DNA from: Magnetococcales bacterium | Lineage (GTDB): Bacteria > Pseudomonadota > Magnetococcia > Magnetococcales > Magnetaquicoccaceae | DNA: 32,610 nucleotides | Assembly: GCA_015231915.1 (NCBI GenBank) | Contig: JADGAR010000041.1 | Span: 1 to 32,610, forward strand | Reading direction: 5' to 3' | Part shown: piece by piece, positions 7,202 through 31,753 of the stretch | How positions within the stretch are numbered: position 1 is the stretch's first letter | Layout of the letters: each line of letters begins with the position of its first letter | Made by a program: the position numbers and the translations under genes | Notes under the pieces: model-generated | What the model was told of the DNA's origin: nothing | The model's input: the letters and a program-made list of their open reading frames with translations, nothing else | Databases searched by the model: none

Positions 7202-7223
7202 ACGAAAAACGGCGGAGGATGAC

Positions 7224-7643: not shown

Positions 7644-8302
7644 TCCCGCCCCACTGGGAGGAGGAGATCAAGTTTCCGGTTTCCTCCACCGCGCTGCTCG
7701 CGACGATTCGTGCCGACGTGGGGGAGCGTCTGGCCCGTTGCTCCCCTCCCGAGGACCGCTCGTATGTGGATGCCTATCTGGATCTGGAGGACCGTCGTCT
7801 GCTGAGGGGGCATGGTCTGGCGTTGCGGCTGCGCGTTTCCGCTGGCGCGCGGGTGGTGGAGATCAAGGGAGGCGGCACCCCGATCGGCGGGTTGATCCGG
7901 CGTCCCGAATGGCGTCAGGCGGCCCCGTCCGGAGAGTTCGTCCGTGGCCGGGAACTCGGTCCTGGCCCGGTGCGTCATGAACTGGCCCGGCTCGGCCTGC
8001 TGGATGACCCCCTGAGGCATTTGTTCACCTGCGCCATCCGCCGTCTGGTCTGGTCCTGCCCCCTGCCTGGGGGCGGGAGCGCGCTGATCGCCTGCGACGA
8101 GGGCGAAGTTCGGGCCGGAACGCGGCGCGCGGTCATCCGCGAGGTGGAGGTGGAGTCGCTCGCCGCCGCCCGCGAGGCGGTGCATGCCCTGGCCGGGGAG
8201 TTGGCCGCCCGGCATGGCCTGGTCGCGGGGGGGGCGTCGAAGTTCATGGCGGGCCTGGGCCTGCTGGGGGGTGGTCTGCCGCCGGATGGCGCTTTTTTGT
8301 GA
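7610..8302 (+). CDS. CYTH-domain protein (triphosphate tunnel phosphatase family)
   Basis: This 230-residue protein carries the CYTH signature ExExK at Glu17-Lys21 (EEEIK), followed by YVDAYLDLEDRRLLRGHGLA and ALRLRV, the usual tyrosine/leucine strand and basic pair. CYTH enzymes hydrolyse inorganic triphosphate, thiamine triphosphate or similar substrates in an eight-stranded tunnel with divalent metal. The only usable start, ATG at 7610, lies inside the rhodanese gene, giving a 34-base overlap in another frame. No strong ribosome site is seen, so translation may depend on coupling. The protein is short for a fused CYTH-CHAD protein and has no CHAD domain. Confidence 0.85.
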   Translation: MEGAGISGTFVIPPHWEEEIKFPVSSTALLATIRADVGERLARCSPPEDRSYVDAYLDLEDRRLLRGHGLALRLRVSAGARVVEIKGGGTPIGGLIRRPEWRQAAPSGEFVRGRELGPGPVRHELARLGLLDDPLRHLFTCAIRRLVWSCPLPGGGSALIACDEGEVRAGTRRAVIREVEVESLAAAREAVHALAGELAARHGLVAGGASKFMAGLGLLGGGLPPDGAFL

Positions 8303-14321: not shown

Positions 14322-15169
14322 GCTTCACGCTCCATGCGCGCTTTGAAGGCGACCAGGCGAATGCCCAACAGATTGCGCAGAGGAAAGGCCCCGGCCAGTT
14401 TGCGGCGCAACCCGTGCGGGAGGATTGCCACCATTTTTTCGCATATCATGCCGGGCCACAAGGGCCACAAACCGGACCAGGCGCGCATTTCGACCTGAAG
14501 CGATAAATCGACAAAACCCGCCTCTCGGAACCGGGCGGCCAACTCCCCGATGGCGTATTCCTGCAAATGCAAACCCGTGGCCACTTCGTCGAACATCCCG
14601 GAGATGTCGTGGGGACCAGCAGCGCGATGCGGCGTGACGCACAGGTAGATCCCGCCAGGGGCCAGGATCCGGTGAATTTCCCGCAATTGCGCCATGGCGT
14701 CGTCCGGGTGGAGGTGCTCCATCAGTTGATGGCTGTAGGCCACGTCGATCCGTCCATCCGGGAGCGGCAGCCGCGTTGCGTCCGTGATGATCACCCGCAG
14801 GTTTTCCGGCAGGGGGTCCCCGGAGCGGCTGATCACGTCGGAGACATCCACCGCGATCACCTCTGCCGCGTGACGCGCCATCCGCCGGGAAAGCGCGCCA
14901 TCCCCGCAGCCGATCTCCAGAAAGACCCCGCCCGGTGCGAGCAGCGGCAGCAAACGTGCGGCCTGCCGTTCGATGCGTGCCGCCAGTTCCTCAGGGGTCT
15001 GGCGCCGGGTCCATTGGGGATGATCCGGCACGCGCCGGAACAGTTCGTCGTACACCGCGACATAGAGTGCGCTGCGCTCATGGGCCGGGGCGGCCCGCAA
15101 CCGATCCGCCAGTTCCCGTTCGATCACGTAGTGGGCGCGCATGCGATCCCATGTTCTGACGTCAGTCAT
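14318..15169 (-). CDS. SAM-dependent class I methyltransferase
   Basis: This 283-residue protein has a Rossmann methyltransferase core: motif I VFLEIGCGDGALSRR (Gly-rich loop near residues 84-91), acidic end of strand two VIAVDVSD, then YSHQLMEHLHPDD and ILAPGGIYLCVTPHR, all as in the methyltransf_11/25 group. Lineage with sugar or polysaccharide O-methyltransferases is suggested by its operon rather than by sequence. GGAG lies six bases upstream of the ATG, and start and stop each overlap the neighbouring genes in ATGA form. A hydrophobic, aromatic stretch near residues 235-250 (WSGLWPLWPGMICEKMVA) may contact the membrane. Confidence 0.88.
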   Translation of the reverse strand: MTDVRTWDRMRAHYVIERELADRLRAAPAHERSALYVAVYDELFRRVPDHPQWTRRQTPEELAARIERQAARLLPLLAPGGVFLEIGCGDGALSRRMARHAAEVIAVDVSDVISRSGDPLPENLRVIITDATRLPLPDGRIDVAYSHQLMEHLHPDDAMAQLREIHRILAPGGIYLCVTPHRAAGPHDISGMFDEVATGLHLQEYAIGELAARFREAGFVDLSLQVEMRAWSGLWPLWPGMICEKMVAILPHGLRRKLAGAFPLRNLLGIRLVAFKARMEREA

Positions 15170-16617
15170 CGGGATCTCCATTTCGGCTGGCTTCGCATTG
15201 GCTGCGCGCTTTTGCCTGCTGGCGCCTCGGCCAGTCGTTTTTGGAGAGCCGTGTCCGTATACGCCTTCAAAATCGCCACGATGGCGATCAGATGATAGGG
15301 CAGGTCGAAATAGGCCATCCCCAGAAAGGCCCCGGCGCTGTAATAGCCGAACAGTCCCACCCAGATCATGCCGGAGAGGTCGCGGACCCAGTGCAATTCC
15401 GGCACGTAGCGGGTGCGCCGGTTCAGCCGGATGATGGTGTACAGCACCGATATGTGCATGCACAGCCAGAGTATGAAGCCGACATATCCCTGCTCGCCGA
15501 GGACTTCGAAGTAGATGCTGTGCGCCGCGTGTTTCATGACGCCTGGGGTGTATTTGTCAAAGGTTTGCTGTTCGAATGCCCCCAATCCCCCCCCCAGGAT
15601 GGGTCGGTCTTCCACGATGAGCAGGGCCACCCGCCAGGCGTGCAGGCGACCGGCCATGGATTTGTCTTGAATGATGTTTGGGGCGGAACTGAAGGTTTCC
15701 ATCATTTGATCGGTCAGATCCTGCTCTATTGCCCCTTTTTTGAAGATGGTCAGATTTTTTTCATTATTCAGATTGGTTTCTTCTTCTTCCATCATGCGCA
15801 TGGTTTCCAAAGAAGATCCGATGACATCGTGCATGCGATTCAACCATTTGGTCGGCATGAAAAAGTAGGAAGAAGTAACGATGGCAACAACTAATACTCC
15901 TGTCATTATTTTTTGTCTTGATTTCATCCAGAAGATCAAGAGCACGACAGAAAGGCCGATAAAGCCCCCTCTGGAATAGCTCCCCAGGATGGCGGCAAGC
16001 GAAAAAACAATCATTAACAGCATAAATATTTTAATGAGATACGACCGGGTGTTGCGCATGAAAAATACAAATAAAGGTGCGTTCACCATCTGGGCCAGGG
16101 CGAATGCATTGTTATCCTCGAAAAAACTCAACGCCGGTCCCATCACGCGATAGTTGCCGCCGGACATGATGGTGAAGAGACCTCCCTTCAAACCGAAAAA
16201 ACCGACCGAAAAGGCAATCACCATCACGATCGAGATGATCTGTCGACGCGTCTGCGTCAGGATGATCGTCGCGAAAATCATGATCTGAATCTTGATGAAA
16301 CGGTCGAGCAATTCCAAAGCCGCAGTGGGACGAAAGGCAAACTGGGAGGTGAAAATCGTCCACACGGCGAACAAGGCCATGAAGAGGATCGGCAACGTCC
16401 ATGGGATCCTGATCTTGACACGGGACGAGAACAGAATCCCGATGATGGTGGCCAGGGCGATGAGCAGATTGAAACGAAAATTATAAGCAAAGCTCCAGGT
16501 CAGCCGGTGAGGGTTCATGTAGCCGATCCAGGCCCACAACATCAATCCGATGAAGGGTCTGGCCACGGCCACCGGCAACATCATCAGCACGAACAGGGTC
16601 AGGGCCAGGTCTCTCAT
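15166..16617 (-). CDS. O-antigen-ligase-like protein, exosortase-A-associated type
   Basis: This 483-residue polytopic membrane protein has about 10-12 hydrophobic segments. The N-terminus (RPFIGLMLWAWIGYMNPHRL followed by WSFAYNF) closely resembles the putative O-glycosylation ligases associated with exosortase A systems, as I remember that family. The Wzy_C/O-antigen-ligase core shows GSYSRGGFIGL and a long periplasmic loop (about residues 255-350) ending in HSIYFEVLGEQGYVGF. Such enzymes transfer a lipid-linked glycan to protein or lipid at the periplasmic face. Neighbours are the matching glycosyltransferase upstream and a methyltransferase downstream, joined by ATGA overlaps. The middle (about 15700-16110) is visibly AT-richer than the surrounding DNA. 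Confidence 0.87.
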   Translation of the reverse strand: MRDLALTLFVLMMLPVAVARPFIGLMLWAWIGYMNPHRLTWSFAYNFRFNLLIALATIIGILFSSRVKIRIPWTLPILFMALFAVWTIFTSQFAFRPTAALELLDRFIKIQIMIFATIILTQTRRQIISIVMVIAFSVGFFGLKGGLFTIMSGGNYRVMGPALSFFEDNNAFALAQMVNAPLFVFFMRNTRSYLIKIFMLLMIVFSLAAILGSYSRGGFIGLSVVLLIFWMKSRQKIMTGVLVVAIVTSSYFFMPTKWLNRMHDVIGSSLETMRMMEEEETNLNNEKNLTIFKKGAIEQDLTDQMMETFSSAPNIIQDKSMAGRLHAWRVALLIVEDRPILGGGLGAFEQQTFDKYTPGVMKHAAHSIYFEVLGEQGYVGFILWLCMHISVLYTIIRLNRRTRYVPELHWVRDLSGMIWVGLFGYYSAGAFLGMAYFDLPYHLIAIVAILKAYTDTALQKRLAEAPAGKSAQPMRSQPKWRSR

Positions 16618-17828
16618 GCGTCAGGATTCCTTGGCGCCGGACAGGCGGCGTCGTACACCTGGCGATAGCCGGCCACGCTCATGCGCCAGTTGCGCGCCTC
16701 GCGCACGAACTGCCCGGCGCGGCGCAGGACCGGTTCCCAGCGGGAGCGATCCTCCAGGAGGGCGACAATCGTATCCGCCAGCGCCCCGGCCCGGCCTGCC
16801 GGGAAAAGAAAACCGGTCTCGCCGTGGGCGATCAGTTCCTGGTGTCCCCCCACGTTCGAGGCCACCACCAGGCGTCCGGCTGCCATCGCTTCCAGGGGTT
16901 TCAAGGGTGTGACCAGCTGGGTCAGCCGCATGGGCAGACGCGGGTAGACCAGCAGATCCGCCAGGGCATAATACCGCGTTGTCAACTCCGGCGGCGCGCG
17001 ACCTGTAAAAAGGACATGGCCGGTCACGCCCATCCTGTCGGCTTGCAGGCGCAGCCGTTCCTCCTCCGGTCCGCCTCCCACCAGGACCAGCCTGGCCCGG
17101 GGACGACGCGCCAGAATCGCAGGCAGGGCATCCAGCAGCAACGACAACCCCTCGTAGGCGTAGAACGAACCGAGATACAGAAGAATCTCCCCGTCGCCCG
17201 GCGTCAGACCGGGCAACGGCGCGGGAGGCGGTGGCCGGAACCGTTCGGCATCCACCGCGTTGGGCACGATGGTGATCTTGTCCGCCGGGATGCCCCTGTC
17301 GGTCAAATCGCGGCGCAGCCCTTCGCAGATGACGGTCACCGCCCTGGCCCGCCGCGCCACCAGGGTCTCCAGGGCGCGGGTCAGACGGTAGCGCGCTCCC
17401 CATGCCCGTCCCGTGCCATGACTGGCTGCGGCGTCTTCCCAGAAGGCACGGATTTCATACACCACCGGAATCCCCAGCCGTCGGCCCGCCCGCAGGGCCG
17501 CCAGGCCGTTGAGGACCGGCGAGTGGGCGTGCAGCAGATCGGGCCGGTACGCCTCGGCCAGCTCCAGAATCCGTTTTTCCAGGGCCGTGACCACCGCCGA
17601 CTGCCTGAGGATCGGCAGCCGGGCAGCCAGTGTCCGTTCCGGCGCGGTGCGGTGAAAAAGCCATTCGCCTTCCTGGTCCGCCATGCTGGTGGCAAAGGGG
17701 TGCTTGGGGCCGGTCATTGGAATCGGCTCCCAGCCGAACTCCCGCTGCTGCCGCAAAATGGCCAGGGTACGAAAGACATAGCCACTTTGCAGGGGGGCGG
17801 AATGGTCGAGAATATGCAGGATGCGCAT
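16614..17828 (-). CDS. Group 4 glycosyltransferase, exosortase-A-associated type
   Basis: This 404-residue GT-B glycosyltransferase begins MRILHILDHSAPLQSGYVFR, the characteristic start of the exosortase/PEP-CTERM-associated glycosyltransferases; this fixes the start although the ribosome site (AAAGAAA) is weak and a longer frame to 17900 exists. The N-terminal half contains LLHAHSPVLNGLAAL. The donor-binding half has IVPNAVDAERF, LYLGSFYAYEGLSLLLDAL and PLEAMAAGRLVVASNVGGHQ, with a Glu-rich nucleotide-sugar site. It probably adds a sugar to a lipid-linked intermediate on the cytoplasmic face. It is the first gene of the four-gene operon and diverges from the radical SAM gene. Confidence 0.89.
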   Translation of the reverse strand: MRILHILDHSAPLQSGYVFRTLAILRQQREFGWEPIPMTGPKHPFATSMADQEGEWLFHRTAPERTLAARLPILRQSAVVTALEKRILELAEAYRPDLLHAHSPVLNGLAALRAGRRLGIPVVYEIRAFWEDAAASHGTGRAWGARYRLTRALETLVARRARAVTVICEGLRRDLTDRGIPADKITIVPNAVDAERFRPPPPAPLPGLTPGDGEILLYLGSFYAYEGLSLLLDALPAILARRPRARLVLVGGGPEEERLRLQADRMGVTGHVLFTGRAPPELTTRYYALADLLVYPRLPMRLTQLVTPLKPLEAMAAGRLVVASNVGGHQELIAHGETGFLFPAGRAGALADTIVALLEDRSRWEPVLRRAGQFVREARNWRMSVAGYRQVYDAACPAPRNPDA

Positions 17829-17920
17829 GGCCGTTTCTTTGCTGTCGGCAATCGGTTGGCGGTAGCGCATAGTGTCGTTCCCCCGCAGCGTCTCTGTCAA
17901 TGCCGGGGACGCCGCTTCCC

Positions 17921-19044: not shown

Positions 19045-20693
19045 TGCCGGCCAATGGTTACCTGAAAGGTCTTGCCAATCAGGGGAATCGAAATGGCCAG
19101 ATCCTGTCTGGTCGGCGGCTTGGCGTGTTTGTACCGATAGACGAGCAGCTTCTGGCCGCGCAGCGCGCTGCGACCGGACTCCACGGGGATGCTTTGCAGC
19201 AGTTCGAAGTCGTCGCCCTTCAGATCGTCGCGCAGCATCTGGTGAATGGGCAGGTTGGCATAGTTCGCCTCCTCCACGACGATGATGTCGATGCCGTACC
19301 GGTCGAAGTGGTTTCTGATCGCCGCCACATCCTGGACATGCACTTCGGTCCAGGCGTTGGCGAAAATGGCCGACGAGTGCAGCAGTTTGTCGCCGCGGAT
19401 CACATGGTGTCGTCTCTCCGGGTCGTTGAGTCGCACATAATAGATGAAATAACCATTATTGACGCCGTCCATGAAGATCATCCCATGGCGCGTATGCTGC
19501 ATCGCCAGGCGCGCCGCCTCCTGATAGCCTCGGGTCGCGGTCGGGGTCTGGGCATGGCTGACCTGGACCTGCCAGAGAATGACCAGCGTCAGCGTCAGCC
19601 AGGTCGCGTTGCGGACCAGGGGATTGTGGCGCAGGTAGTGGCCGGGCAGGGCCGCGAGCAGGGCAAAGGCCGGCACCCAGAAAATGGTGTAACGGTCCAC
19701 CCGGTCACTGCGGATCACGGTGAAGAAAATATAGGTCGTAACGATCAGCAACAGATAAAAAAGCACCCGCCGATCCCGTCGCCACCCCGCCAGCACCACC
19801 CCGACCAGCGCCAACATGAGCACCGGCCAGGTCACCTGAGTCTGCCACAACAGGTCCAGATATTTGCGCAGGTAGACCCAGTCCGTCAGACCCAGCCCGC
19901 GCAGGGCAGGGTCCATCCCCTCGAAAGCCAGGGTGATGTTCAACTTGCCCAGCAACAGCGTGGCGATCCCCAGGGGCAGAACCAGGAGCAGACACAGGAG
20001 CATGGCCCACCAGGTGGCGCGCTGCCGGAACGCAATCCGCGCCTGACCGGTGATCAAGAGCCAGCCAAGAAACCAGATGGCCATGAAAAGGGCAGTCTGC
20101 TTGGTCCAGATGGTCAGGGCGAGGCCGATGGCAGTGGCAAACAGCCATTGCGGTCGTCCGGACTCGGAATAACGCCAGAAAAAATTGGTGGTCAGCAGGC
20201 TCATGGCCAGCACCGGGATTTCCAGCATGGGATACCAGCCCCACTGGGCGATGAAGGGGGTGGAAAAGAGCAGACACGAGGCCAGCAGGGCGGTCGGACG
20301 GTCGAAGGAGCGGCGTATCAGGTCATGCCATGCCACGGCCCCGCACAAGGCCATGGCCAGCACCGCCAGCTTGCCGCTGAAGTCCCGCACCCCGAACCAG
20401 GAGAAAAAAAGCGCCTCGATCAGGGGAAAAAACGGGGGTCTGGACCCCATCAGGCTCAGGGCCGGGTACTGGGCGTAGTACTCCAGGGCATACCGATAGG
20501 CATTTTGTACGAAATCGGCAGAGAGGAGGGCAGGCAGTTCGCGCAGGAAATCGTACAGGAACAGGCCGTCCATCAGGACGCGGTCGGCATCCGGCCAGCC
20601 GACATCCGGGTCGTGCAGTCCCTTGGAGAAGAGCAGCAGGATGATGCCGGCAACCAGCAGCCCGGCCAGGGGAGTGAGGAGTTTGTCTTTCAC
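19038..20693 (-). CDS. GT-C (ArnT/PMT-like) membrane glycosyltransferase
   Basis: This 551-residue protein has an N-terminal membrane helix, an acidic first loop with DPDVGWPDADRVLMDG, then about ten more hydrophobic segments and a soluble C-terminal region from about residue 395. The layout is that of GT39/GT83 enzymes, which use polyprenyl-phosphate sugars on the periplasmic side. The segment SRPPFFPLIEALFFSWFG is typical of the family. It starts with GTG overlapping the stop of the GT2 gene (GTGA). The pair fits a pathway in which the GT2 makes the polyprenyl-phosphate sugar and this protein transfers it. The acceptor is unknown. Confidence 0.85.
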   Translation of the reverse strand: MKDKLLTPLAGLLVAGIILLLFSKGLHDPDVGWPDADRVLMDGLFLYDFLRELPALLSADFVQNAYRYALEYYAQYPALSLMGSRPPFFPLIEALFFSWFGVRDFSGKLAVLAMALCGAVAWHDLIRRSFDRPTALLASCLLFSTPFIAQWGWYPMLEIPVLAMSLLTTNFFWRYSESGRPQWLFATAIGLALTIWTKQTALFMAIWFLGWLLITGQARIAFRQRATWWAMLLCLLLVLPLGIATLLLGKLNITLAFEGMDPALRGLGLTDWVYLRKYLDLLWQTQVTWPVLMLALVGVVLAGWRRDRRVLFYLLLIVTTYIFFTVIRSDRVDRYTIFWVPAFALLAALPGHYLRHNPLVRNATWLTLTLVILWQVQVSHAQTPTATRGYQEAARLAMQHTRHGMIFMDGVNNGYFIYYVRLNDPERRHHVIRGDKLLHSSAIFANAWTEVHVQDVAAIRNHFDRYGIDIIVVEEANYANLPIHQMLRDDLKGDDFELLQSIPVESGRSALRGQKLLVYRYKHAKPPTRQDLAISIPLIGKTFQVTIGRHQ

Positions 20694-21778: not shown

Positions 21779-22018
21779 ATGCGACCCGATACCGAACAGC
21801 AATTGCGGGAGATCTTCCGCGCCGTTCTGGAACTCGACCCTGCCGAGTCCCCGGACGGAATCCGCAACCTGACCGAACCCCGTTGGAACTCCCTGGCCCA
21901 TGTCACCCTGCTGGCGGCCATCGAGAGCGAATTCGGCCTCTCCCTCTCCATCGAGGAGATGGACCGGGTCACCTCCTTCGCCGCCGCCCGCCTGCTGCTG
22001 GAAGAAAAGGGGTCATGA
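21779..22018 (+). CDS. Acyl carrier protein
   Basis: This 79-residue acidic helical protein has the phosphopantetheine-attachment segment RWNSLAHVTLLAAIESEFG, with Ser38 as the expected attachment site. The usual Asp before this Ser is replaced by Asn, a variation seen in some specialised carrier proteins. It is not the fatty-acid ACP: it lacks the acidic helix II start and is embedded in a specialised operon. Its stop overlaps the MaoC-SDR start by ATGA. It presumably carries the acyl or glyceryl unit processed by the three downstream enzymes. The first in-frame ATG has only a poor ribosome site upstream. Confidence 0.88.
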   Translation: MRPDTEQQLREIFRAVLELDPAESPDGIRNLTEPRWNSLAHVTLLAAIESEFGLSLSIEEMDRVTSFAAARLLLEEKGS

Positions 22019-23082
22019 GCACTGCCGGCTTCGAGGTCCGCGTCACCTACGAGGATGCCCTGCGCTTCGCCGACCTTTCCGGAGACCACAACCCGTTGCA
22101 TACCGATCCCGCCTACGCGGCGGGCACCACCTTCGGGCGTCCCATCCTGCACGGGGCCTTTTCCGCCGCCCTGTTCTCCCGCCTGGCCGGGATGCACCTG
22201 CCCGGACGGGAGTGCCTGCTCCACGGCATGCGGCTGCGCTTCGTCGCCCCGGTCCACCCTCCGGCCACCCTGCGGGTGACCGGCCTGCTGCGGCATGCCA
22301 CCCCGGACGGCGGCGAGGTGGCGGTCACCATCGACGATGCCCAGACCGGCACCCGCTGCGTCGAGGGGAGCTATCAGTTCGGCTATCACCACGCGGCACC
22401 CGTCGAGGATGCCCCTGCCCCGGAGACGACAGGCGCCAATCCGCATGCCCCGGTGGTCCTGGTCACCGGCGGCTCCGGCGGCCTCGGAGCCGCGCTGCTG
22501 ACCCTGTTGGGACCCTCCGGCCTGCCCTGGTCCCGCGCAGGGGACGCCATGGACCCCCTGCCGGATCGACCCGTTGCCGGCATCGTCCATTGCGGCTGGC
22601 CCAAGCCCGACAACCAGCGCCTCATCCAGTTGGCCGCCTCCACCCGCGAGGCGGTCCACCATCACGTCGCCGCGCCCCTGGAGCAGATGATCTCCCTGGC
22701 CGCCACCCTGGCCAAACATGGCCTGCCGGGCGCGCCATTGATCCTGGTCGGCTCCACCATGGCCGATCCGGGCTGGCACCACTACCGCATGCCCCTCTAC
22801 AGCCTGGCCAAGTCCCTGATCCCCACCCTGACCCGCATCCTCGCCCTGGAACTGGGCGCCGGGGGACGCAAGTGCATGAGCCTGATCCTCGACATCATCG
22901 AGGGACCGGGCATGAACGCCGGCATCCATCCGGCCATCCTCCGGAAACACGCTGACCGCTCCCCCTTCGGTCGCCTGATCACCCCAGGCGAGGCCGCCGC
23001 CCAGATTCGCTGGCTGCTGGACAACCCCTCGCTCTTCACCTCCGGGGCCGTGCTCAACCTCTCCGGGGGCATGGTGCCATGA
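22015..23082 (+). CDS. MaoC-like hydratase fused to a short-chain dehydrogenase/reductase
   Basis: This 355-residue protein joins two domains. Residues about 5-125 form a MaoC/(R)-hydratase hotdog with the active-site motif SGDHNPLHTDPAYA (Asp24, Asn26, His29) and FGRPILHG. Residues about 145-355 form an SDR: cofactor loop TGGSGGLG at 151-158, Ser247 in LVGSTMAD, catalytic Tyr262 and Lys266 in YSLAKS, and the C-terminal SGGMVP. The fusion could hydrate or dehydrate and reduce or oxidise the same acyl-ACP, acting on the ACP encoded just upstream. The start overlaps the ACP stop and its stop overlaps the FkbH start (both ATGA). Substrate and direction are inferred from context only. Confidence 0.88.
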   Translation: MSTAGFEVRVTYEDALRFADLSGDHNPLHTDPAYAAGTTFGRPILHGAFSAALFSRLAGMHLPGRECLLHGMRLRFVAPVHPPATLRVTGLLRHATPDGGEVAVTIDDAQTGTRCVEGSYQFGYHHAAPVEDAPAPETTGANPHAPVVLVTGGSGGLGAALLTLLGPSGLPWSRAGDAMDPLPDRPVAGIVHCGWPKPDNQRLIQLAASTREAVHHHVAAPLEQMISLAATLAKHGLPGAPLILVGSTMADPGWHHYRMPLYSLAKSLIPTLTRILALELGAGGRKCMSLILDIIEGPGMNAGIHPAILRKHADRSPFGRLITPGEAAAQIRWLLDNPSLFTSGAVLNLSGGMVP

Positions 23083-24719
23083 ATTTCCTGGAAGCCAGAA
23101 AAATCCTCGCCACCCCCCTGGACGATCTGCCCGTCCGCCGCCTGCTGTTGGGCGGCTCCGGCATGCTGGACGGGTTGACCCTGTTCCTGCGCGCCCAGGC
23201 TGCCACCCGCCGCATCCGACTGGAGCCGGAAACGTTGCCCTTCGGCACGCTGATCCAGTCCCTGGTCACCCTGCCGACGCTGCCCGACCGTCAGGAGCTT
23301 TATTTGCTCCTGCCCTGGGACCTGATCCCGGAGTGCGACTGGCGCACCGGCAATCGCACCCTGGTGGACGAGGAGGGCCTGCTGGCCGAGGCCATGCGCC
23401 GCATGGAGCTGGTCACAAACCGCCCCGGGGCACGCATCGCCTGGCTGCCCGCCCCCATGCCACCCCTGCTGCCCAATCACGCCGCCTCGCGCTCCTTGAC
23501 CGGTGAACTGCTGAAACGGACCGCCCGCCAGGGTGCCCTGCTTCTGGATGCGCGGGATTTCTCCCTGGCCGGTTATCTGGCCAGCGGCCAGCCCATCGCC
23601 GGCAGCCGCCTGGGAACCCTGGCCGGGGAGTTGCTGGATTGGCTCTCTCTCCCCCCGGCAGGGTCCATCAAGGTGATCGTCACCGATTTGGACCACACCC
23701 TCTGGCGCGGCATCGTCGGCGAGGATGGCCCGGACGGTGTGTCGGCTGCCCCGGAGGCCGCGAGTTTTCGCCATTTTCTGTTTCAGGCGCTGCTCAAGCG
23801 GCTGAAAAGCCAGGGTCTGCTGCTGGCCGCCGTCACCCGCAACGACGAGGATCTGGCGCGCGCGCCGTTCAAGACCGGACGCATGCCATTGACTGAGGAG
23901 GATTTCGTGGCCTTCCGGGCCGGCTACGGGGCCAAATCCACCCAGATTCGCCACCTGGCCACCACCCTCAATCTCGGGCTGGACGCCTTTCTCTTCGTGG
24001 ACGACAACCCGGTGGAACTGGCGGAAGTGCGGGCCAACCTGCCACAAGTGGTCTTTCTCCAATTTCCGGGCGACGAAGAGGGTTTTCCCCATTTTCTGGA
24101 TCGGATAGCCTGGTTGGCCTCGCGGCACACCCTCACCGCCGAGGACGGGGAACGCACCGCACTCTATCACCGCATGCTGGCCGATCAACCCCCCCCGGAG
24201 TCCGGCGGCGCGCCATTGACCGCCTTTCTGCGCGGCCTGGCCATGGTCCTGACCATCCGCGAGCCGCAAGCCGGAGCGCGCACACGCGCCCACCAGCTCA
24301 TCAACAAGACCAACCAGTTCAACCTCAACGGCATCCGCTTCGGCGAAGAGGAGATGGAGGCCATCCTCGCCGCAGGGGGCAGGCTGTTCGTGGCCACCCT
24401 GGAGGACCGCAGCGGCAGCCACGGCGAAATCCTCTCCTGCCTCGTGGACACGACGGGGCGGGTGCGCTCCCTGGTCATCTCCTGCCGGGTGTTGCAACGC
24501 CGGGTGGAATACGTTTTTCTGGCATGCCTGATCGAACGGTGGCAAGGGCCACCGTTGATCCTCGATTTTCTCCCCACGGAGCGCAACGCCCCCTTGCGGC
24601 TCTTTCTGGAGGACCCGGCCTTCGTTCCGGGCGAGGAGGGGGTGCGTCTGGACCCGGCTGCCTTCCGGGAGGCCCACGCCGGGGATTGTGCCCTCTTCAC
24701 CATCCGGGAAAGCCCATGA
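23079..24719 (+). CDS. FkbH-like HAD-family protein
   Basis: This 546-residue protein has an N-terminal region (1-190) as in long FkbH-like proteins, then a HAD phosphatase-type domain. HAD motif I is VTDLDHTLWRGIVGEDG with Asp203 and Asp205; the later HAD acidic motif is FLFVDDNPVEL. The C-terminal domain contains HQLINKTNQFNLNGIRF, the FkbH signature of the GNAT-like part. Characterised FkbH proteins dephosphorylate 1,3-bisphosphoglycerate and load the glyceryl unit on an ACP. That reaction is likely here because the ACP gene is in the same operon, but relatives also serve in polysaccharide loci with other units. All catalytic Asp residues seem present. Confidence 0.89.
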   Translation: MNFLEARKILATPLDDLPVRRLLLGGSGMLDGLTLFLRAQAATRRIRLEPETLPFGTLIQSLVTLPTLPDRQELYLLLPWDLIPECDWRTGNRTLVDEEGLLAEAMRRMELVTNRPGARIAWLPAPMPPLLPNHAASRSLTGELLKRTARQGALLLDARDFSLAGYLASGQPIAGSRLGTLAGELLDWLSLPPAGSIKVIVTDLDHTLWRGIVGEDGPDGVSAAPEAASFRHFLFQALLKRLKSQGLLLAAVTRNDEDLARAPFKTGRMPLTEEDFVAFRAGYGAKSTQIRHLATTLNLGLDAFLFVDDNPVELAEVRANLPQVVFLQFPGDEEGFPHFLDRIAWLASRHTLTAEDGERTALYHRMLADQPPPESGGAPLTAFLRGLAMVLTIREPQAGARTRAHQLINKTNQFNLNGIRFGEEEMEAILAAGGRLFVATLEDRSGSHGEILSCLVDTTGRVRSLVISCRVLQRRVEYVFLACLIERWQGPPLILDFLPTERNAPLRLFLEDPAFVPGEEGVRLDPAAFREAHAGDCALFTIRESP

Positions 24720-25576
24720 CCGCCAGCGCCGAACTCCTGCCGATCCTGGACCAGGACCTGGAGGCCGCCTGCCGCTTCCTGCACGAAAACATCAACCGCA
24801 CCATCTCCCCGCAAGCCTGGCAACTCGCCTATTCCCAGCCCTGGCTGGCGGACGCCCCCAATCACGGCTTCATGCTCGTGGACCAGGGGCGCGTGGTGGG
24901 GGTGTTCATGGCCATCTACTCGGCACAGACGATACGCGGGGCGACGGAGCGTTTTTGCAATCAAAACAGTTGGGTCGTGCTGGAACCCTATCGCCATCTG
25001 GGCCTGGGGTTGTGGCGCGCCCTGCAGGCCCAGAGCGGGTATCACGTCACCATGCTGACCCCCAATCCCACCGTGGCCAAGGTCTACCAAACCCGGCGCT
25101 ACCGCCCGATCGGCGCTGCCGTGACGGTCCTGCCCGCCCCCCTGCCATGGCCGCTGGCCCGCCAGGCGCGGGTGGTGGTGGAGGAAGAGGCCCAGGCGGT
25201 ATTGCCAGCCGCAGCCGCCAGGGATCTGGTCAATCATCGGCCTTTTCCCTGGCTGACGCAATTGGCCCTCGGCGATGCGGAAAGGGGCTATTGCCTGGTG
25301 GTCGGCAAGCTGGGGCGCTGGAAACGGTTGCCCGCCCTGCGGGTGCTGCATGTCAGCGACGGGGCGATTTTTGCTTCTCTCCATCCTGCGCTGGGGCGCC
25401 ATCTTTTCCGGCGGTACGGGGTGATCACCCTGCACGTCCCGTCCCGTTGTCTTCCCACCCGGACGGGGTTCGAGATCACCGATACCCAGCCGCGCCTGTT
25501 CCTCTCCGACCGGCTGGAGGAACGCGACATCACCTGGCTTTATACCGAACTGGTGGCGCTGGACCTGCCGATGTGA
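24716..25576 (+). CDS. GNAT-family acyltransferase
   Basis: This 286-residue protein shows a GNAT-type core in its first half: the strand FMLVDQGRVVGVFMAIYS, then VVLEPYRHLGLGLWRAL containing the R-x-x-G-x-G acyl-CoA/pantetheine loop, and LTPNPTVAKVYQTRRYRP. The second half (about 140-286) is a less recognisable domain with LRVLHVSDGAIFASL. It probably moves the acyl unit built by the ACP, MaoC-SDR and FkbH proteins to an amine or hydroxyl on a sugar. The start overlaps the FkbH stop by ATGA. The 3' end overlaps the convergent deacetylase gene by 37 bases. Confidence 0.8.
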   Translation: MTASAELLPILDQDLEAACRFLHENINRTISPQAWQLAYSQPWLADAPNHGFMLVDQGRVVGVFMAIYSAQTIRGATERFCNQNSWVVLEPYRHLGLGLWRALQAQSGYHVTMLTPNPTVAKVYQTRRYRPIGAAVTVLPAPLPWPLARQARVVVEEEAQAVLPAAAARDLVNHRPFPWLTQLALGDAERGYCLVVGKLGRWKRLPALRVLHVSDGAIFASLHPALGRHLFRRYGVITLHVPSRCLPTRTGFEITDTQPRLFLSDRLEERDITWLYTELVALDLPM

Positions 25577-26523
25577 GGCGGCAATTCCATGGGCGTTGTG
25601 CAGCGACCGCCCAACTCCGTGGTGAAAAATGCCAGATACCCCCGCAGCCTTTGCAAAAATCCCCGCAACTCGGCCTGGTCCCGCACGTAGGGGGTGTGTC
25701 CCGGACAAAGCGTGGGCGAGTGAAAACTGATTGAAAAAAGCCCCGTGCCCCGCGCGAGCAGTGCCCTGGTCAGCCGCTTCATTTCCTCCAGCGTCGCCCC
25801 CTCTGGCGAGAGGCGGATGCGGTTGAGCAACCCGCCACGGGCCAGCAGACCCGGCAGCCGCAAGGCGACAGCCAGGGGATGACGGCTGGCGCGAAACCGC
25901 GCATGGGCGCTTCGTCCGGCAAGCAGACCGTAATAGCCCCCGGTGGTGGGCAGGGTGAGCAGGCCCCCCGCCAGGGAAGGTTGGGTGTCGTGATGGGAAA
26001 AATCCGGTCCTCCCTCCGGGGAGAGGTCGAAGGGGGGAGAGGGGCTGAGATCGAACCGGTAGCCCAACTCCGTGAGGATGGCATGGGTGTTGGGACCGAT
26101 GCCGTAACGGCCCGCCTTGTAGATGACGGGTCGTTGGCCCAGGGCGCTTTCGATGGCCAGGGTCAGGGTGAGCAGCTTGGCGCGCTCCAGCGCAGGGGGA
26201 AGATTGCCGGGAAAGGAGAGACGGGGGGAGAGTTCCTCGTCCCAGGGCGGGGTGTTCCAGGGGTGGAGATGGGCGCCCGCCACGGCGCGCCCCGCTGCGA
26301 GAAAAGGACGCAAGGGGGCGATGCCCGCCTCCCGGGAGACCACCGCATGGCTCATCACGTAGACCGGTTTGGCGCCGAAGGGTTCGCACACCTCCTGACC
26401 CAGGCCGATGCCGGCCATGGCGGCAACCGAGACCGCCTCGCGCCTCACCGGCAGGTTCCAGTCGAACTCCTCCTCGGTATCCACCACCACCATCAGCAAA
26501 GGCGGGTCAGGGGCAGGCGGCAT
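25540..26523 (-). CDS. Polysaccharide deacetylase (NodB-fold) family protein
   Basis: This 327-residue protein shows the catalytic start LLMVVVDTEEEFDWN (Asp15 as likely base/metal residue), the His-pair region AGAHLHPWNTPPWDEE, and downstream HHDTQPS and SISFHSPTLCPGHTPYVR, typical of the WbmS/WalW-like branch found in O-antigen loci. It probably removes N-acetyl groups from a sugar precursor or glycan. No signal peptide is visible, so it may act in the cytoplasm. The ATG at 26523 is inside the preceding hydrolase gene (17-base overlap); an ATG at 26493 is possible but would leave only a few residues before the catalytic Asp. It converges on the GNAT gene. Confidence 0.86.
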   Translation of the reverse strand: MPPAPDPPLLMVVVDTEEEFDWNLPVRREAVSVAAMAGIGLGQEVCEPFGAKPVYVMSHAVVSREAGIAPLRPFLAAGRAVAGAHLHPWNTPPWDEELSPRLSFPGNLPPALERAKLLTLTLAIESALGQRPVIYKAGRYGIGPNTHAILTELGYRFDLSPSPPFDLSPEGGPDFSHHDTQPSLAGGLLTLPTTGGYYGLLAGRSAHARFRASRHPLAVALRLPGLLARGGLLNRIRLSPEGATLEEMKRLTRALLARGTGLFSISFHSPTLCPGHTPYVRDQAELRGFLQRLRGYLAFFTTELGGRCTTPMELPPHIGRSSATSSV

Positions 26524-27478
26524 CGGGGGCGCGGTCCAGGACAATGGAGAAAAACAGCTCCGCCTCGGCCTGGGAGCCATCCCCCTCGTGCAGGATGCCG
26601 GGATGGACGCGCAAGCCGTACCAGGCGCGCTTGCGATGGTAGACCTCCAGCAGTCGGTAGGCGTGCCCGGAGAATTCGTTGACCGGGTCGTAGAGATTCT
26701 GGATCAGAAACAAAGGGGGCAAGGTTTCCCGTTCCGCCGCCAGGCCCAGGAGATCCGGGAGGGAATCGGTGGATGCGCCTTGCAGGAAGCCGTAAGGGTT
26801 GTTGCGGTTGTCGCTGCCGTAATCGGCGATCTTGGCGGCGAGATCCACTTGCGGGGCCATGGCATAGATGGCGCGGCACCCCAGGGAGATGCCATGCCAG
26901 AGTGCGCCGAACCCCCCCATGGAACTGCCCATGCAAAAGAGCGGGACCGCAGGGTCGGGGTGGTGTTCCCGGATCAGCGCCTGAATCATCTCCGCCACGA
27001 AGCCGTTGCCCTTTTCCCCCCAGAACCAGCTGCCCTGGCGTTTCCAGCCGAAGGTGTCCCACGGGGCGAGCAGATCGAAATGCTCGAAGGGTTGCAGCGG
27101 CCCGGTGTGAAACCAGGAGTTGAAGCCATGAAAAAACACCACCAGCCCCTTGGACTCCTTGCGCGCCGGGATGCGGGCGTAGCGGATCAGGCGCTCGCCG
27201 TGATGAAAGACCAAAGGATAGATCCGGTCGATGTTGGAGGCGTCGTGCAGGGAGAGGGCCGCATCCTCCCTGGCGCGGCGCAGGTTTTTTTGTTGGGCGC
27301 GGTCTTCCTGGCTTTTGCGCGGGAAATAATTTTTCGTGTTGCAGTTGGCCAGGGGGACCACATCGGCGGGGGTGCGCAGGGCATTCATCAGGGAGACGCG
27401 CAGGGCCTCCCGCCAGCCCATGGCGTCGGCGCGGGTGGCAAGGAGGCGCCATTTTTCCGGGATGGCGCGCCAGTTCAT
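26507..27478 (-). CDS. Alpha/beta hydrolase
   Basis: This 323-residue protein has an alpha/beta-hydrolase core: oxyanion strand GLVVFFHGFNSWFHTG, nucleophile elbow MGSSMGGFGALWHG with Ser186, a likely acid residue in LYDPVNEFSGH, and His in VHPGILHEGDGS. The nucleophile GSSMGG suits esterases and acyl-transfer enzymes. The first 80 residues form an uncharacterised, basic leader without a signal peptide. It is coupled to the carbamoyltransferase by ATGA and to the deacetylase by overlap. Its substrate may be the same glycan or its acyl donor; this is inference from position. Confidence 0.85.
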   Translation of the reverse strand: MNWRAIPEKWRLLATRADAMGWREALRVSLMNALRTPADVVPLANCNTKNYFPRKSQEDRAQQKNLRRAREDAALSLHDASNIDRIYPLVFHHGERLIRYARIPARKESKGLVVFFHGFNSWFHTGPLQPFEHFDLLAPWDTFGWKRQGSWFWGEKGNGFVAEMIQALIREHHPDPAVPLFCMGSSMGGFGALWHGISLGCRAIYAMAPQVDLAAKIADYGSDNRNNPYGFLQGASTDSLPDLLGLAAERETLPPLFLIQNLYDPVNEFSGHAYRLLEVYHRKRAWYGLRVHPGILHEGDGSQAEAELFFSIVLDRAPDAACP

Positions 27479-29103
27479 GACTTGTAGCCCAGCAGATTGC
27501 CGATGCACAACAGGTCCATGTCCGCCTTCAGGAAGGTCTGCACCGCCTCTTCCGGGGCCTCGACGATGGGATCGCCCTGATCGTTGAAGCTGGTGTTCAA
27601 CAAGACCGGCACACCGGTCAACTCGCCGAAACGGCGGATCAGCCGGGCATAGGGACGCTCATCGCTCGCGCGCAGGACCTGCAGCCGGGCCGTGCCATCC
27701 ACGTGGACGACAGCGGGGCATGCCTCCCTGGCCGACGGACGGGCAGGGGTGGTGAAGGTCATGAAGTCCAGGTCCGCCACCTCCGGGGGATAGTCGAAAT
27801 AGGTTGGGGCATCCCCGGCCAGGGCCACCGGGGCGAAGGGGCGGAACCACTCCCGATGCTTGACCCGGGCGTTGATGATATCTTTCATGGCCGCCTGGCG
27901 GGGGTCGGCCAGGATGCTGCGATTGCCCAGGGCGCGGGCGCCCATCTCCGAGCGTCCGTGAAACCAGCCGACGATCTTGCCCTCGGCCAGGGCACGCGCC
28001 GCAGTCTCGATGACATCGTCCCCCTTGACGACCCGCAGGCCGGCGCGCCGCATGGCGGCCTCGCCCACCTTGTCGGCGAAGGTCTGGCCGTGAAAGACCG
28101 AATCGAGCTTGAAGAACCGTTCCTCCCCCAGGACCTGATGGACGTAATAGAGGGCCGCCCCCAGACCGATGCCGCGATCCGAGGCCATGGGCAGGGGAAA
28201 GATTTTGCGAAACCCTTGCTCCAGGAGTTTGCCGTTGAGGGAGGAGTTCATGGTCACACCCCCCCCCAGGACCAGATCGGCCTCGCCGGTGCGTTCCCTG
28301 GCAATGGCGCACAGACGGCCCGCCACGGTCTCCAGGGTCTTTTGGATGCTGGCGGCCAGATTCATGTGGTCGCGGGTGATGGGTTCCGGATCGATGCGGC
28401 GGGGCAACTGCTCGTCGAGGAAGTCGTTGTTGAGCAGCATGGCGTTCAGGTAGCCCCCCTCCACCGCCAGCCGGGAGGCCTGGGTGCGCAGCGCCTCGCC
28501 CAGGCGCATCTGGCCGTTGGGGAGGATCTCGATCTGCTCCATGTAGCGTTCGAAGAGGGTGGGTTCCCCATAGGGGGCCAGGCCTTGCGTCTTGCCTTCG
28601 GCCCCGTAGCCTCCCAGGCCCAGGTGATAGGTGGCGCGGGTGTATTCCAGGCCGATGCTGTCCTGATCGCTCAACCGCTCCAGCACATCGATGGAGCGTC
28701 CGCGTCCGTGGGCCAGGATGCCGCAGGCGCCGTCGCCGAAGCCGTCCAGGGTGACGATGGCGGCTGACTCCAGTCCGGATGCGAAGAAGGCCCCGGCGGC
28801 GTGGCAGAGGTGGTGGTCCAGGTCGATGTACTTCTTGCCGCGTCCGAGCCGCTCTTTGATCCACTCCCGGCAGGGGAAGGGGTCGGTGTGACCGAAGACC
28901 ACCACGTCGATGTGGCGCAAGGCGATCTCCAGGGTGTCGCAGCAGTGACGGATGGGTGCCAGCAGGTCGTCCTCCTTGCGGATGACGTGGTGTTTGCGCC
29001 GGGAGAGACGTTCGGCCTCGAACATGGCCACCCGTTTCTTCTTGAGGTCGATGATGGCGCAGTTGTAGTCGTGCATGAAACCGCCGATTCCCAGTACGAC
29101 CAT
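27475..29103 (-). CDS. Carbamoyltransferase (NodU/CmcH family)
   Basis: This 542-residue enzyme resembles the NodU/TobZ/CmcH carbamoyltransferases, which transfer a carbamoyl group from carbamoyl phosphate to a hydroxyl group via carbamoyl-AMP. The start MVVLGIGGFMHDYNCAIIDL has the family His. DHHLCHAAGAFFASG, TLDGFGDGACG and GLEYTRATYHLG follow in the HypF-like Kae1 domain, and NRSILADPR and WFRPFAPVAL belong to the C-terminal domain, which ends in VLLNTSFNDQGDPIVE. All conserved blocks are present. AAGGA about nine bases upstream of the ATG is a good ribosome site. In this locus it would carbamoylate a sugar of the surface glycan. Confidence 0.94.
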   Translation of the reverse strand: MVVLGIGGFMHDYNCAIIDLKKKRVAMFEAERLSRRKHHVIRKEDDLLAPIRHCCDTLEIALRHIDVVVFGHTDPFPCREWIKERLGRGKKYIDLDHHLCHAAGAFFASGLESAAIVTLDGFGDGACGILAHGRGRSIDVLERLSDQDSIGLEYTRATYHLGLGGYGAEGKTQGLAPYGEPTLFERYMEQIEILPNGQMRLGEALRTQASRLAVEGGYLNAMLLNNDFLDEQLPRRIDPEPITRDHMNLAASIQKTLETVAGRLCAIARERTGEADLVLGGGVTMNSSLNGKLLEQGFRKIFPLPMASDRGIGLGAALYYVHQVLGEERFFKLDSVFHGQTFADKVGEAAMRRAGLRVVKGDDVIETAARALAEGKIVGWFHGRSEMGARALGNRSILADPRQAAMKDIINARVKHREWFRPFAPVALAGDAPTYFDYPPEVADLDFMTFTTPARPSAREACPAVVHVDGTARLQVLRASDERPYARLIRRFGELTGVPVLLNTSFNDQGDPIVEAPEEAVQTFLKADMDLLCIGNLLGYKS

Positions 29104-29178
29104 GTATCTTTGTCCTTTGTCGAGGGTGGAACGAAAACACCGGGGCAGGGTGCAGGATTTCCCCGGAGTGCCGGAAAG

Positions 29179-30342
29179 TCAAGGAGAAAACCGGGGCGCG
29201 AAGATGTCGGGTTTGCCCGCCACGAAGCGTTGGGTGTAGAGCGCTTTGAAGCGGGGGGCGATATGCCACTGGTCGTAGTAGTGTTCGGGCGTCCAGCGGT
29301 CGTCCGGATTGTCGTCGTGCAGGCCGGCGCCATGGGCAGCCAGATAATCCCGCAAGTCGGCCAGATAGCGCAGTTCGTAGTCCGGGCGGATCAGAGGGGC
29401 GCCGTCGAGGTTGGGACGTTGCTTTACCAGGACGAATTCCAGGCGCAGCCCGTGTTCTTTGGCCAGGCGCAGCATGGCCGGAAGCAACGAGTGAGGGAGT
29501 TGTTCGGCAAAGGTGGGAGGAGCGGGTCTGGTTTGGGCATCCGTTGCCGGGCGGGGGGCGGGTCTGGGGCGGAAGCCGTTGGCATTGAAGAGCGTCTCCT
29601 TGATCTCCCGCTTGAACTCCTGGCGGCTTGCGAAGAGCGCGTACTCCTCTTCCGGGGTCACGGGCGGGGAGCCGAATTTCTTGCGCCACATCATGCCGGG
29701 AAAATCGGGCAGGGCAGGGAGCAGGGCCAGGGAATCCAGGCTCCAGTCCAGGTCGTTGCGCTTGAGCTGGATGGGATAAAGATCATAAAAAAACGTTTCC
29801 AACCGGTCGATGAAGGGGCGATGGAAGGCCAGCACCCGTTGGAGTTCCGGTTCGTCGTCCACCGAGGCCTTGGCCAGCAGGGCGCGCTCTTCCGGGGTGG
29901 AGACCGAGCGGTAGGGGGTGGTCAGTTCGTCGTCCCGGAAGAAGAGGAAGGTGGCACGGGGCCGGTGCCCGGAGGCGATGAGATCGTTTTTGAGCCAGAG
30001 ATACCAGTGGGCCGAGAAGACGCCCCCCATGGACAGAAGCATGCCGGTTGCGCCTGGCAGGGTGTTCAGGGTCGGCAGGTCGATGCGGGAGAAGAGCATG
30101 GAGTTGCCGATGAAGACGAAAGTGGGCTTTTTTTGCGCCAGTTCCTGGCGATTGGCGGGGTTGAAGGGGATGGTGGGGGAAAACCGACCCGGCAGGGCAG
30201 GGAGCAGGAGCATGCATGCCAAGAGGAGCAGGACCGTTGTTTTGCCAGCAAGCCAGGGGACGGCAGCGCTTTCCGTGGCTGGGTGACTTTGATAGACTCC
30301 TTGCGGACCTGGGGACGGATTTGGCGCGGATGGTTCGCTCAT
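29179..30342 (-). CDS. Membrane-anchored SGNH-hydrolase-like protein, MBOAT partner
   Basis: This 387-residue protein has a short cytoplasmic start, a membrane helix (about residues 34-51) and a periplasmic domain. VFIGNSMLFSRID gives the SGNH nucleophile region (Ser81), and YYDQWHIAP near the C-terminus gives the Asp-x-x-His pair. Such proteins often work with MBOAT acyltransferases (as AlgX/AlgJ with AlgI, or PatB with PatA), and the divergent neighbour is an MBOAT gene. It probably places an acyl group on the glycan in the periplasm. Its start codon overlaps that of the MBOAT gene head-to-head, and no strong ribosome site is seen upstream (only GAAA). Confidence 0.82.
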   Translation of the reverse strand: MSEPSAPNPSPGPQGVYQSHPATESAAVPWLAGKTTVLLLLACMLLLPALPGRFSPTIPFNPANRQELAQKKPTFVFIGNSMLFSRIDLPTLNTLPGATGMLLSMGGVFSAHWYLWLKNDLIASGHRPRATFLFFRDDELTTPYRSVSTPEERALLAKASVDDEPELQRVLAFHRPFIDRLETFFYDLYPIQLKRNDLDWSLDSLALLPALPDFPGMMWRKKFGSPPVTPEEEYALFASRQEFKREIKETLFNANGFRPRPAPRPATDAQTRPAPPTFAEQLPHSLLPAMLRLAKEHGLRLEFVLVKQRPNLDGAPLIRPDYELRYLADLRDYLAAHGAGLHDDNPDDRWTPEHYYDQWHIAPRFKALYTQRFVAGKPDIFAPRFSP

Positions 30343-31753
30343 GATATTTCATTCGATCGATTTTCTGGTGTTTTTGCTGGCCGTCCTGACGATCTACTGG
30401 CGGCTGCCCCATCGCCCTCAGCAATATTTTTTATTGGTGGCGAGCGGTTTTTTTTACGGGTATGTCCACCCGTGGTTTCTGTATCCATTGCTGGCGACCG
30501 CCAGCATCGATTTTCTGGTGGCGCGGGCCATGGAGCGGCATCCCGGTCTGCGTTGGCGTCTGTTGCTGGTGAGTCTGACGGCCAATCTGGGTCTGTTGGC
30601 CATTTTCAAGTATTTCGGCTTTTTTGTCGAGAACGTGGCTGCGCTGTTCGCCTGGTTCGGATGGGTCCCGCCGCGTTTGGTGCTGGAGATCGTGTTGCCG
30701 GTCGGGATCTCTTTTTACACGTTCCAGTCGATCAGTTACACCACGGATGTTTATCGGGGGAAGATCCGGGCCTGTCACGACTTTGTTGAATTCGGCATTT
30801 ATGTGAGCTTTTTTGCCCAGTTGGTGGCTGGTCCCATCGGTCGCGGGGGTGACATTCTGCCCCAGGTGCGCCGGGAAAAGCGTGTGGATTTCGCTGCCGT
30901 TCGTTCCGGGATCGTGTTGATGGTCTGGGGGTTTTTCGAGAAACTGGTGATCGCCGACAATGCCGCATTGATCGTCAACAACGTTTTTTTATTGGAGAAT
31001 CCGCCTTTTGCGGTGTTGTGGGCCGGGGTGTTCGCCTTTACCGTGCAGATTCTGGCCGATTTTTCCGGTTACACCGACATTGCCCGCGGGGTGGCACGTC
31101 TGTTCGGTTATGAATTGAGTCGCAATTTCAATCATCCCTATCTGGCCACCTCCCCGGGGGAGTTCTGGAAGCGTTGGCACATGTCGTTGTCCGGTTGGAT
31201 CCGGGATTATCTATACATTCCGCTGGGCGGTTCCCGTGTGGGTCCTGTCCGCTATCTTTTCAATATTCTGGTGACTTTTTTCCTGTGCGGCCTGTGGCAT
31301 GGCGCGAGTTGGAATTTCGTGTTGTGGGGCTTGTTTCACGGGGGTTTGATCGCGCTGTATCGTGCGGCTGGCGCCGTGGGTTTCCTGGTTGCCCTGGGCC
31401 GGGTTCCCGGAGTGGTCGTGCTGCAATGGCTGCTGATGTTCGCCCTGACCCAGCTGGGCTGGCTGATCTTCCGCGAGACCGACCTGACCCATCTGCTGCA
31501 TTATCTGACCCTCTCCCCCTTCGCCGACACCGCGCGGGAGCGTCAGTACGCCATGTTTCTGTTCACCAAGGCCTTTTTCTACTCGCTGTTTTTGTGGCTG
31601 CACGCCGTTGTGGACCTTTATGTGCTTTCCCGTCTGGCCTCCTCTCCCCGAATGCGCTTCTGGTCGGAAACGGTTCTGGTCACCTGCCTGTTTCTGGGGA
31701 TTTTGAACATGCGGGCATTTCAGCGGGTGGATTTTATTTATTTTCAGTTTTGA
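30341..31753 (+). CDS. MBOAT O-acyltransferase (AlgI/DltB-like)
   Basis: This 470-residue polytopic protein begins MIFHSIDFLVFLLAVLTIYW, the usual start of AlgI-type MBOAT proteins. The catalytic region has WKRWHMSLSGWIRDYLYIPL with His280 and CGLWHGASWNFVLWGLFHG with His320. These enzymes pass an acyl group across the inner membrane for attachment to a polysaccharide or peptidoglycan. Length and topology are normal. It is transcribed away from the SGNH partner gene with a two-base overlap of start codons. A stretch at 31228-31282 is duplicated in inverted orientation at the right edge of the window. GGATGG about eight bases upstream may be the ribosome site. Confidence 0.95.
   Translation: MIFHSIDFLVFLLAVLTIYWRLPHRPQQYFLLVASGFFYGYVHPWFLYPLLATASIDFLVARAMERHPGLRWRLLLVSLTANLGLLAIFKYFGFFVENVAALFAWFGWVPPRLVLEIVLPVGISFYTFQSISYTTDVYRGKIRACHDFVEFGIYVSFFAQLVAGPIGRGGDILPQVRREKRVDFAAVRSGIVLMVWGFFEKLVIADNAALIVNNVFLLENPPFAVLWAGVFAFTVQILADFSGYTDIARGVARLFGYELSRNFNHPYLATSPGEFWKRWHMSLSGWIRDYLYIPLGGSRVGPVRYLFNILVTFFLCGLWHGASWNFVLWGLFHGGLIALYRAAGAVGFLVALGRVPGVVVLQWLLMFALTQLGWLIFRETDLTHLLHYLTLSPFADTARERQYAMFLFTKAFFYSLFLWLHAVVDLYVLSRLASSPRMRFWSETVLVTCLFLGILNMRAFQRVDFIYFQF
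31228..31282 (+). repeat. 55-bp exact inverted repeat, MBOAT copy
   Basis: This segment encodes GSRVGPVRYLFNILVTFF of the MBOAT protein. Its exact reverse complement occupies 32556-32610, the very end of the window, with 55 of 55 bases identical. The match stops at 31282, the end of the codon for Phe314, and may continue past the window's right edge. The spacer between the copies is 1273 bases. Confidence 0.95.

Follow-up and report, generated by a model that had tools for sequence, protein, structure and literature searches.

Known FkbH systems and acylated amino sugars

Loading modules of the bryostatin and patellazole type combine FkbH, DH and KR activities and provide a D-lactate starter; for the bryostatin loading module, it is this FkbH, DH and KR set that has been proposed to make D-lactate. 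Among glycan pathways, viosamine-type islands direct the synthesis of 3-hydroxybutyryl amino sugars with a dedicated ACP, reductase and ketosynthase. Known producers of N-lactoyl groups are P. marincola and Simiduia litorea.

FkbH proteins load a glyceryl group from 1,3-bisphosphoglycerate onto an ACP (PMC7489565). The nearest biological precedent for an FkbH in a glycan locus, although a partial one, is the flagellin locus of C. jejuni: its gene cj1302 has an fkbH domain (PMC7099621), and its Cj1295 is required for di-O-methylglyceroyl pseudaminic acid (PMC3068675). Amide-linked lactate has been reported on Rha4N, Fuc3N and Pse (PMC9912281), and the lactate on Pse in Psychrobacter marincola has the (R) configuration (PMC7281560). 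Our literature search found no described biosynthesis of N-lactoyl amino sugars and no paper in which FkbH appears together with MaoC, while the only relevant match for FkbH and polysaccharide was the C. jejuni work.

A four-gene cassette in a magnetotactic-type bacterium

The window that we analysed is one entire contig of 32.6 kb, taken from the 4.02 Mb genome of a member of the Magnetococcales, a magnetotactic-type bacterium. Within it, ORFs for an ACP, a MaoC-SDR fusion, an FkbH and a GNAT-like protein form a head-to-tail array at 21779-25576. A sequence-only reading had described these four ORFs and their three ATGA junctions, and all of them proved exact when the sequence was checked again. 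The features, with the evidence for each, are as follows.

21779-22018, plus strand: ACP, 79 aa (PF00550; invariant residues)
22015-22018, plus strand: ATGA overlap of ACP and MaoC-SDR genes (sequence; kept in relatives)
22015-23082, plus strand: MaoC-SDR fusion, 355 aa (Pfam; alignments; AlphaFold2; Foldseek)
23079-23082, plus strand: ATGA overlap of MaoC-SDR and FkbH genes (sequence)
23079-24719, plus strand: FkbH, 546 aa (TIGR01686, TIGR01681; invariant residues)
24716-24719, plus strand: ATGA overlap of FkbH and GNAT-like genes (sequence)
24716-25576, plus strand: GNAT-like N-acyltransferase, probably tandem GNAT, 286 aa (weak: Pfam, hhalign, Foldseek)

The overlaps suggest that the genes are co-transcribed and translationally coupled. 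We do not take them as a sign of fixed stoichiometry, as had been proposed, because such overlaps are ordinary and two further 4-base overlaps are found in the window (16614-16617 and 20690-20693).

The cassette has in common with the bryostatin- and patellazole-type modules the four activities expected of an FkbH, a carrier, a hot-dog dehydratase and an SDR-type ketoreductase. It differs from them in that these are separate small proteins, a candidate acyltransferase replaces the ketosynthase and the dehydratase is of the MaoC/PhaJ type. Whereas methoxymalonyl-ACP cassettes (FkbG-K type) and the tetronate glycerate-utilisation operon use dehydrogenases or a FabH-like enzyme, the window cassette has MaoC-SDR instead, it is without an O-methyltransferase or a PKS, and its last gene probably encodes an N-acyltransferase. 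Neither an FkbI-type dehydrogenase nor an O-methyltransferase was recognised in the unit at the loci examined. With the viosamine-type islands it has in common a dedicated ACP, a reductase and a putative N-acyltransferase in a glycan island, but an FkbH takes the place of the ketosynthase as the carbon source. The C. jejuni flagellin locus (cj1295, the cj1296/7 acetyltransferase and cj1302) likewise brings together an FkbH-domain protein and an N-acetyltransferase in a glycan locus, and Cj1295-like neighbours are present, as there, in two of the related loci described below (L128 and L050). Its product is a methylated glyceroyl rather than a lactoyl group, and no mention of a MaoC-SDR was found for it; no Cj1295-like protein was recognised in the window.

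Residues of the core proteins

The ACP matches PF00550 (PP-binding) with 24 bits against a cut-off of 20.8. Its phosphopantetheine Ser38 lies within a WNSL motif that reads WDSL in most relatives, and Trp36 and Ser38 are invariant among 10 ACPs from such cassettes. Both halves of the MaoC-SDR fusion are recognised by Pfam (MaoC_dehydratas, 71 bits; adh_short_C2, 45 bits), and its AlphaFold2 model has a mean pLDDT of 83.9. The hydratase residues Asp24 and His29 of the SGDxNPLH motif are present and invariant across 17 proteins, and in Foldseek searches the MaoC domain, which has a hot-dog fold, matched PhaJ (1iq6) with 35% identity and a TM-score of 0.82 by target. We conclude that it is a PhaJ-type (R)-hydratase/dehydratase. 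The SDR domain is shorter than a classical SDR, with Pfam coverage of 90-235 of 236; in alignments the TGxxGGxG motif and Ser247, Tyr262 and Lys266 are all present, and its Foldseek matches are FabG-type SDRs.

FkbH scores 212.9 bits against TIGR01686 (cut-off 146.65) and 59.5 bits against TIGR01681. It has the HAD-IIIC phosphatase domain residues D203, D205, K286 and D308 and the SCR motif S468-C469-R470; D203, D205, D308 and the whole SCR motif are invariant in 11 sequences. From its family, the window's FkbH is predicted to load a glyceryl group.

The core is co-inherited and is fused in some loci

MaoC-SDR was found in 9 of 61 related genomes, its own included, and was beside FkbH every time. 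Across these 61 genomes, 31 of 76 FkbH matches had a MaoC on the same strand at a distance of at most 6 kb, where about 0.13 would be expected if relatedness is ignored; the genomes being related, the P value of this excess carries no meaning in itself. Outside the relatives, the ACP-MaoC/SDR-FkbH core is scattered among alpha- and gammaproteobacteria, a gemmatimonad and a Bacteroidia MAG; a scan of prokaryotes, with one genome per species, found the same MaoC-SDR in Micavibrio, Desertibaculum, the gemmatimonad, a gammaproteobacterium, the Bacteroidia MAG and a proteobacterial MAG. The Desertibaculum locus, L052, belongs to the cultured D. subflavum. Searches of plasmids with MaoC-SDR gave no place with 80% query coverage.

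Loci with a window-like MaoC-SDR were classed as type 1 (n=15). An ACP was identified in 14 of them (the exception being L039) and FkbH also in 14 (the exception being L048), and MaoC and SDR are kept in every one with their catalytic residues intact. At L048 an ACP, MaoC-SDR and AAC(3) occupy 5750-8110, and FkbH was found neither at this locus nor in its genome, which may be incomplete. Distances in the FkbH and MaoC-SDR trees are closely correlated (r=0.88, Mantel p=0.0002, 12 loci). The ACP/MaoC-SDR/FkbH core is thus conserved and co-inherited. In a Magnetococcales MAG of the same genus as the host (G001), the MaoC-SDR frame of one copy (L034; contig 30, 19601-20666) is broken near residue 270 by a frameshift or an assembly error.

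More divergent loci, classed as type 2, mostly have the order FkbH-ACP-MaoC-SDR and come from Acidobacteria, Planctomycetes, a deltaproteobacterium and a Rhodospirillaceae MAG; in Omnitrophota the order is MaoC-SDR, FkbH, ACP. MaoC has a gene of its own in a Patescibacteria MAG and a Nitrosopumilales archaeon, where it adjoins the FkbH and ACP genes and, by ORF reading, a putative holo-ACP synthase gene. Such a putative synthase gene is read next to the cassette in L062 and in the archaeal locus L064. In the latter, FkbH, ACP, MaoC and the putative synthase lie in a row at 3925-6696, and this archaeon has three FkbH matches in a genome of 1.6 Mb.

In two loci (L128, 1948-5920; L129, 814-4855) an AAC(3)-FkbH fusion of 831-848 aa adjoins a MaoC/SDR protein of 494-509 aa, which also matches ACP in phmmer searches and is read as a MaoC-SDR-ACP fusion; a Cj1295-like DUF4910 gene lies beside (recognised by Pfam in L128 and by ORF reading in L129). 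The activities predicted here are those of the bryostatin-type modules, and they are partly fused. To judge from these fusions, the acyltransferase would take what FkbH produces, and MaoC-SDR would act on the carrier.

The host genome itself has a second, divergent cassette (L041; contig 33, 8673-14111) with genes for MaoC-SDR, a protein of about 450 aa, AAC(3), FkbH and ACP. PF02522 was confirmed on the equivalent of its AAC(3) gene in L043, where the homologue of the 450 aa protein had no Pfam match.

The acyltransferase is exchangeable

The window's fourth protein matches Pfam Acetyltransf_1 with E=0.08 and 13.6 bits, under the cut-off of 20.7. Aligned by hhalign with the GNAT-like neighbour of a related cassette (L056/L057) it shows weak similarity (E=4e-5, probability 69%), and the top Foldseek matches of its low-confidence AlphaFold model (pLDDT 42) are GNAT/NMT-fold enzymes; a PDB search gave no useful match. 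These profile and model comparisons make it likely that the protein belongs to GNAT.

An acyltransferase gene adjoins the core in all 14 type-1 loci that could be resolved, L038 being left out because a contig edge cuts it. Half of the 14 have a GNAT-like protein: the host-genus type is confined to the window, L033, L034 and L035, and L052, L053 and L054 carry GNAT-like proteins of different types. The other seven (L036, L037, L039, L040, L048, L050 and L055) have AAC(3)/PF02522, whose gene sits in the overlapping fourth position in L036 and L050. The GNAT-bearing host clade and L036, which bears AAC(3), are sister groups in both the FkbH and the MaoC-SDR trees, which makes it probable that one N-acyltransferase took the place of another. 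The view that the unit is a three-gene core with an exchangeable acyltransferase, of which the window's four-gene set is one variant, is well supported. The exact four genes had earlier been taken as the unit, and homologous loci without the GNAT gene were named as evidence against that reading. Such loci do occur to the letter, the window's GNAT being confined to the host genus, but they carry AAC(3) or another GNAT-like protein in its stead.

Genomic setting

Three genes on the opposite strand mark the surroundings of the cassette.

15166-17900, minus strand: exosortase A-associated O-glycosylation ligase (TIGR03097, 431.8 bits) and XrtA-type glycosyltransferase (TIGR04063, 550 bits)
25540-26580, minus strand: putative polysaccharide deacetylase, convergent, overlapping the 3' end of the GNAT gene by 37 bp

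Because of the exosortase-A-associated O-ligase and glycosyltransferase genes nearby, we regard the setting as a surface glycan or glycoprotein cluster. Beside the window cassette we recognised no gene for amino-sugar biosynthesis; DegT aminotransferases are encoded elsewhere in the host genome. By ORF reading, two other cassettes are not part of a sugar cluster: L033 adjoins a DnaK-like gene and L036 adjoins NusA/InfB-like genes.

The convergent deacetylase-like gene had been suggested to be a member of the pathway. Its product matched no family in any profile library searched, and the gene is found only in the host and G001, which have the whole region in common; a place for it in the conserved unit is therefore not supported. 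Deacetylase-family genes are located near other cassettes in L059, L064, L066 and L138.

Two other parts of the window may be mentioned. Genes for a carbamoyltransferase, an SGNH-like protein and an MBOAT (27475-31753) lie near the cassette and could make further sugar modifications, and at 33-2363 a long threonine-rich protein with short, near-identical LTTTQVGGL-like repeats is encoded from a TTG start.

A possible route to N-lactoyl amino sugars

The explanation that we favour, at close to but short of an even chance, is that the four genes form a carrier-protein route by which a C3 acyl group is made and put on the amino group of a surface-glycan sugar. As expected of its family, FkbH would move the glyceryl part of 1,3-bisphosphoglycerate, a glycolysis intermediate, to the ACP. 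Judged by enzyme type, MaoC would then dehydrate glyceryl-ACP with loss of the 3-hydroxyl, giving 2-hydroxyacryloyl (the enol) and hence pyruvoyl-ACP, a conversion that would drive the dehydration forward, and SDR would reduce pyruvoyl to lactoyl, probably (R)-lactoyl. Finally, the GNAT, or an AAC(3)-type enzyme elsewhere, would pass lactoyl from the ACP to the amino sugar, as the exchange and fusion of these enzymes imply. The sequence-only reading had not settled on a product. Of the possible acyl groups, lactoyl is the simplest to derive from this enzyme set and, as predicted from the domains, the most likely.

Support for the cassette acting as one pathway comes from the co-inheritance of the core, the acyltransferase beside it in every type-1 locus that could be resolved, the intact catalytic residues and the putative holo-ACP synthase genes at L062 and L064; the fusions, the acyltransferase exchange and the second cassette in the host's own genome tie the parts together. 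The PhaJ-like MaoC, the FabG-like SDR, the amide-bound lactate known from glycans and the D-lactate proposed for the bryostatin loading module also count in favour of our explanation. What survives of the earlier scheme is that FkbH would load the ACP, MaoC-SDR modify the unit and an N-acyltransferase transfer it; fixed stoichiometry, the exact four-gene unit and the role of the deacetylase are not supported. Several observations count against our explanation. The SDR resembles 3-oxoacyl reductases and not known 2-oxoacyl reductases; the GNAT similarity is weak, no adjoining amino-sugar gene was recognised, L033 and L036 are away from sugar clusters, no FkbH was found for L048 and several distant loci pair with MBOAT or SGNH genes.

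Were MaoC-SDR not to dehydrate and reduce, the cassette could supply another glycerate-derived group, either N-glyceroyl itself or a 3-oxidised or epimerised glyceryl. Bacterial polysaccharides are known to contain glyceric acid amides, Qui4N being one sugar that bears them, and a glyceroyl derivative of Pse is also known; the C. jejuni di-O-methylglyceroyl-Pse locus contains cj1302, and Cj1295-like DUF4910/DUF2172 genes flank some cassettes (L050 and L128 by Pfam, L055 and L129 by ORF reading). We nevertheless consider this unlikely, as the MaoC and SDR domains that are intact in every type-1 locus would be pointless if glyceryl were passed directly to the sugar, and the unit is without an O-methyltransferase. 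It could also be that FkbH plays no part or acts on a different substrate and that MaoC-SDR makes (R)-3-hydroxybutyryl or a similar group from fatty-acid intermediates on the ACP. A PhaJ-like MaoC, a FabG-like SDR, the 3-hydroxybutyryl amides known on amino sugars and L048 without FkbH would all suit such a role. It is made distinctly improbable by a unit that is without a ketosynthase or CoA ligase and by an FkbH that is present in 14 of 15 type-1 loci, co-inherited and, in L128/L129, fused to the acyltransferase.

Polyketide pathways are where FkbH is most familiar, and the copies in L033 and L036 outside sugar clusters would fit a cassette that feeds a glycerate-derived extender or starter unit (cf. 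methoxymalonyl-ACP) to a secondary metabolite and not to a glycan. This we judge very improbable, given a unit without ketosynthase, FkbI-type dehydrogenase or O-methyltransferase, an acyltransferase wherever the flank is readable, and the place of the window cassette among exosortase-associated glycan genes. That the genes are an ordinary ATGA-coupled operon of unrelated enzymes with no joint function is scarcely credible: 4-base overlaps are common, with two more in the window, but order and content are kept across several phyla with changes only by fusion or acyltransferase swap, and the pairing of FkbH with MaoC so far above expectation contradicts it.

N-lactoyl and N-glyceroyl amino sugars are already known chemically, and the cassette is a candidate source of such groups. 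If the lactoyl route is correct, the cassette could explain the origin of rare lactate-decorated bacterial sugars, and a recognisable cassette would allow N-lactoyl or N-glyceroyl groups to be predicted from genomes. FkbH chemistry would then extend past antibiotics, to the glycans on the cell surfaces of many phyla. The design is modular: the core that would make the acyl group is constant, and the attaching enzyme is swapped. More tentatively, ACP-MaoC/SDR-FkbH might be a general pathway, spread across phyla, that turns 1,3-bisphosphoglycerate into (R)-lactoyl-ACP with which glycans are decorated. Its last step would be a plug-in, amides being formed by GNAT or AAC(3) and esters by MBOAT or SGNH, and the pathway would be the source of N-lactoyl amino sugars that has so far been missing. 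The wider group may include an O-acyl variant, as distant FkbH-MaoC loci with MBOAT/SGNH genes hint. FkbH and MaoC/SDR lie beside MBOAT and/or SGNH-like genes in L127, L130, L132, L133 and L137, and in L137 MaoC and SDR are on separate genes.
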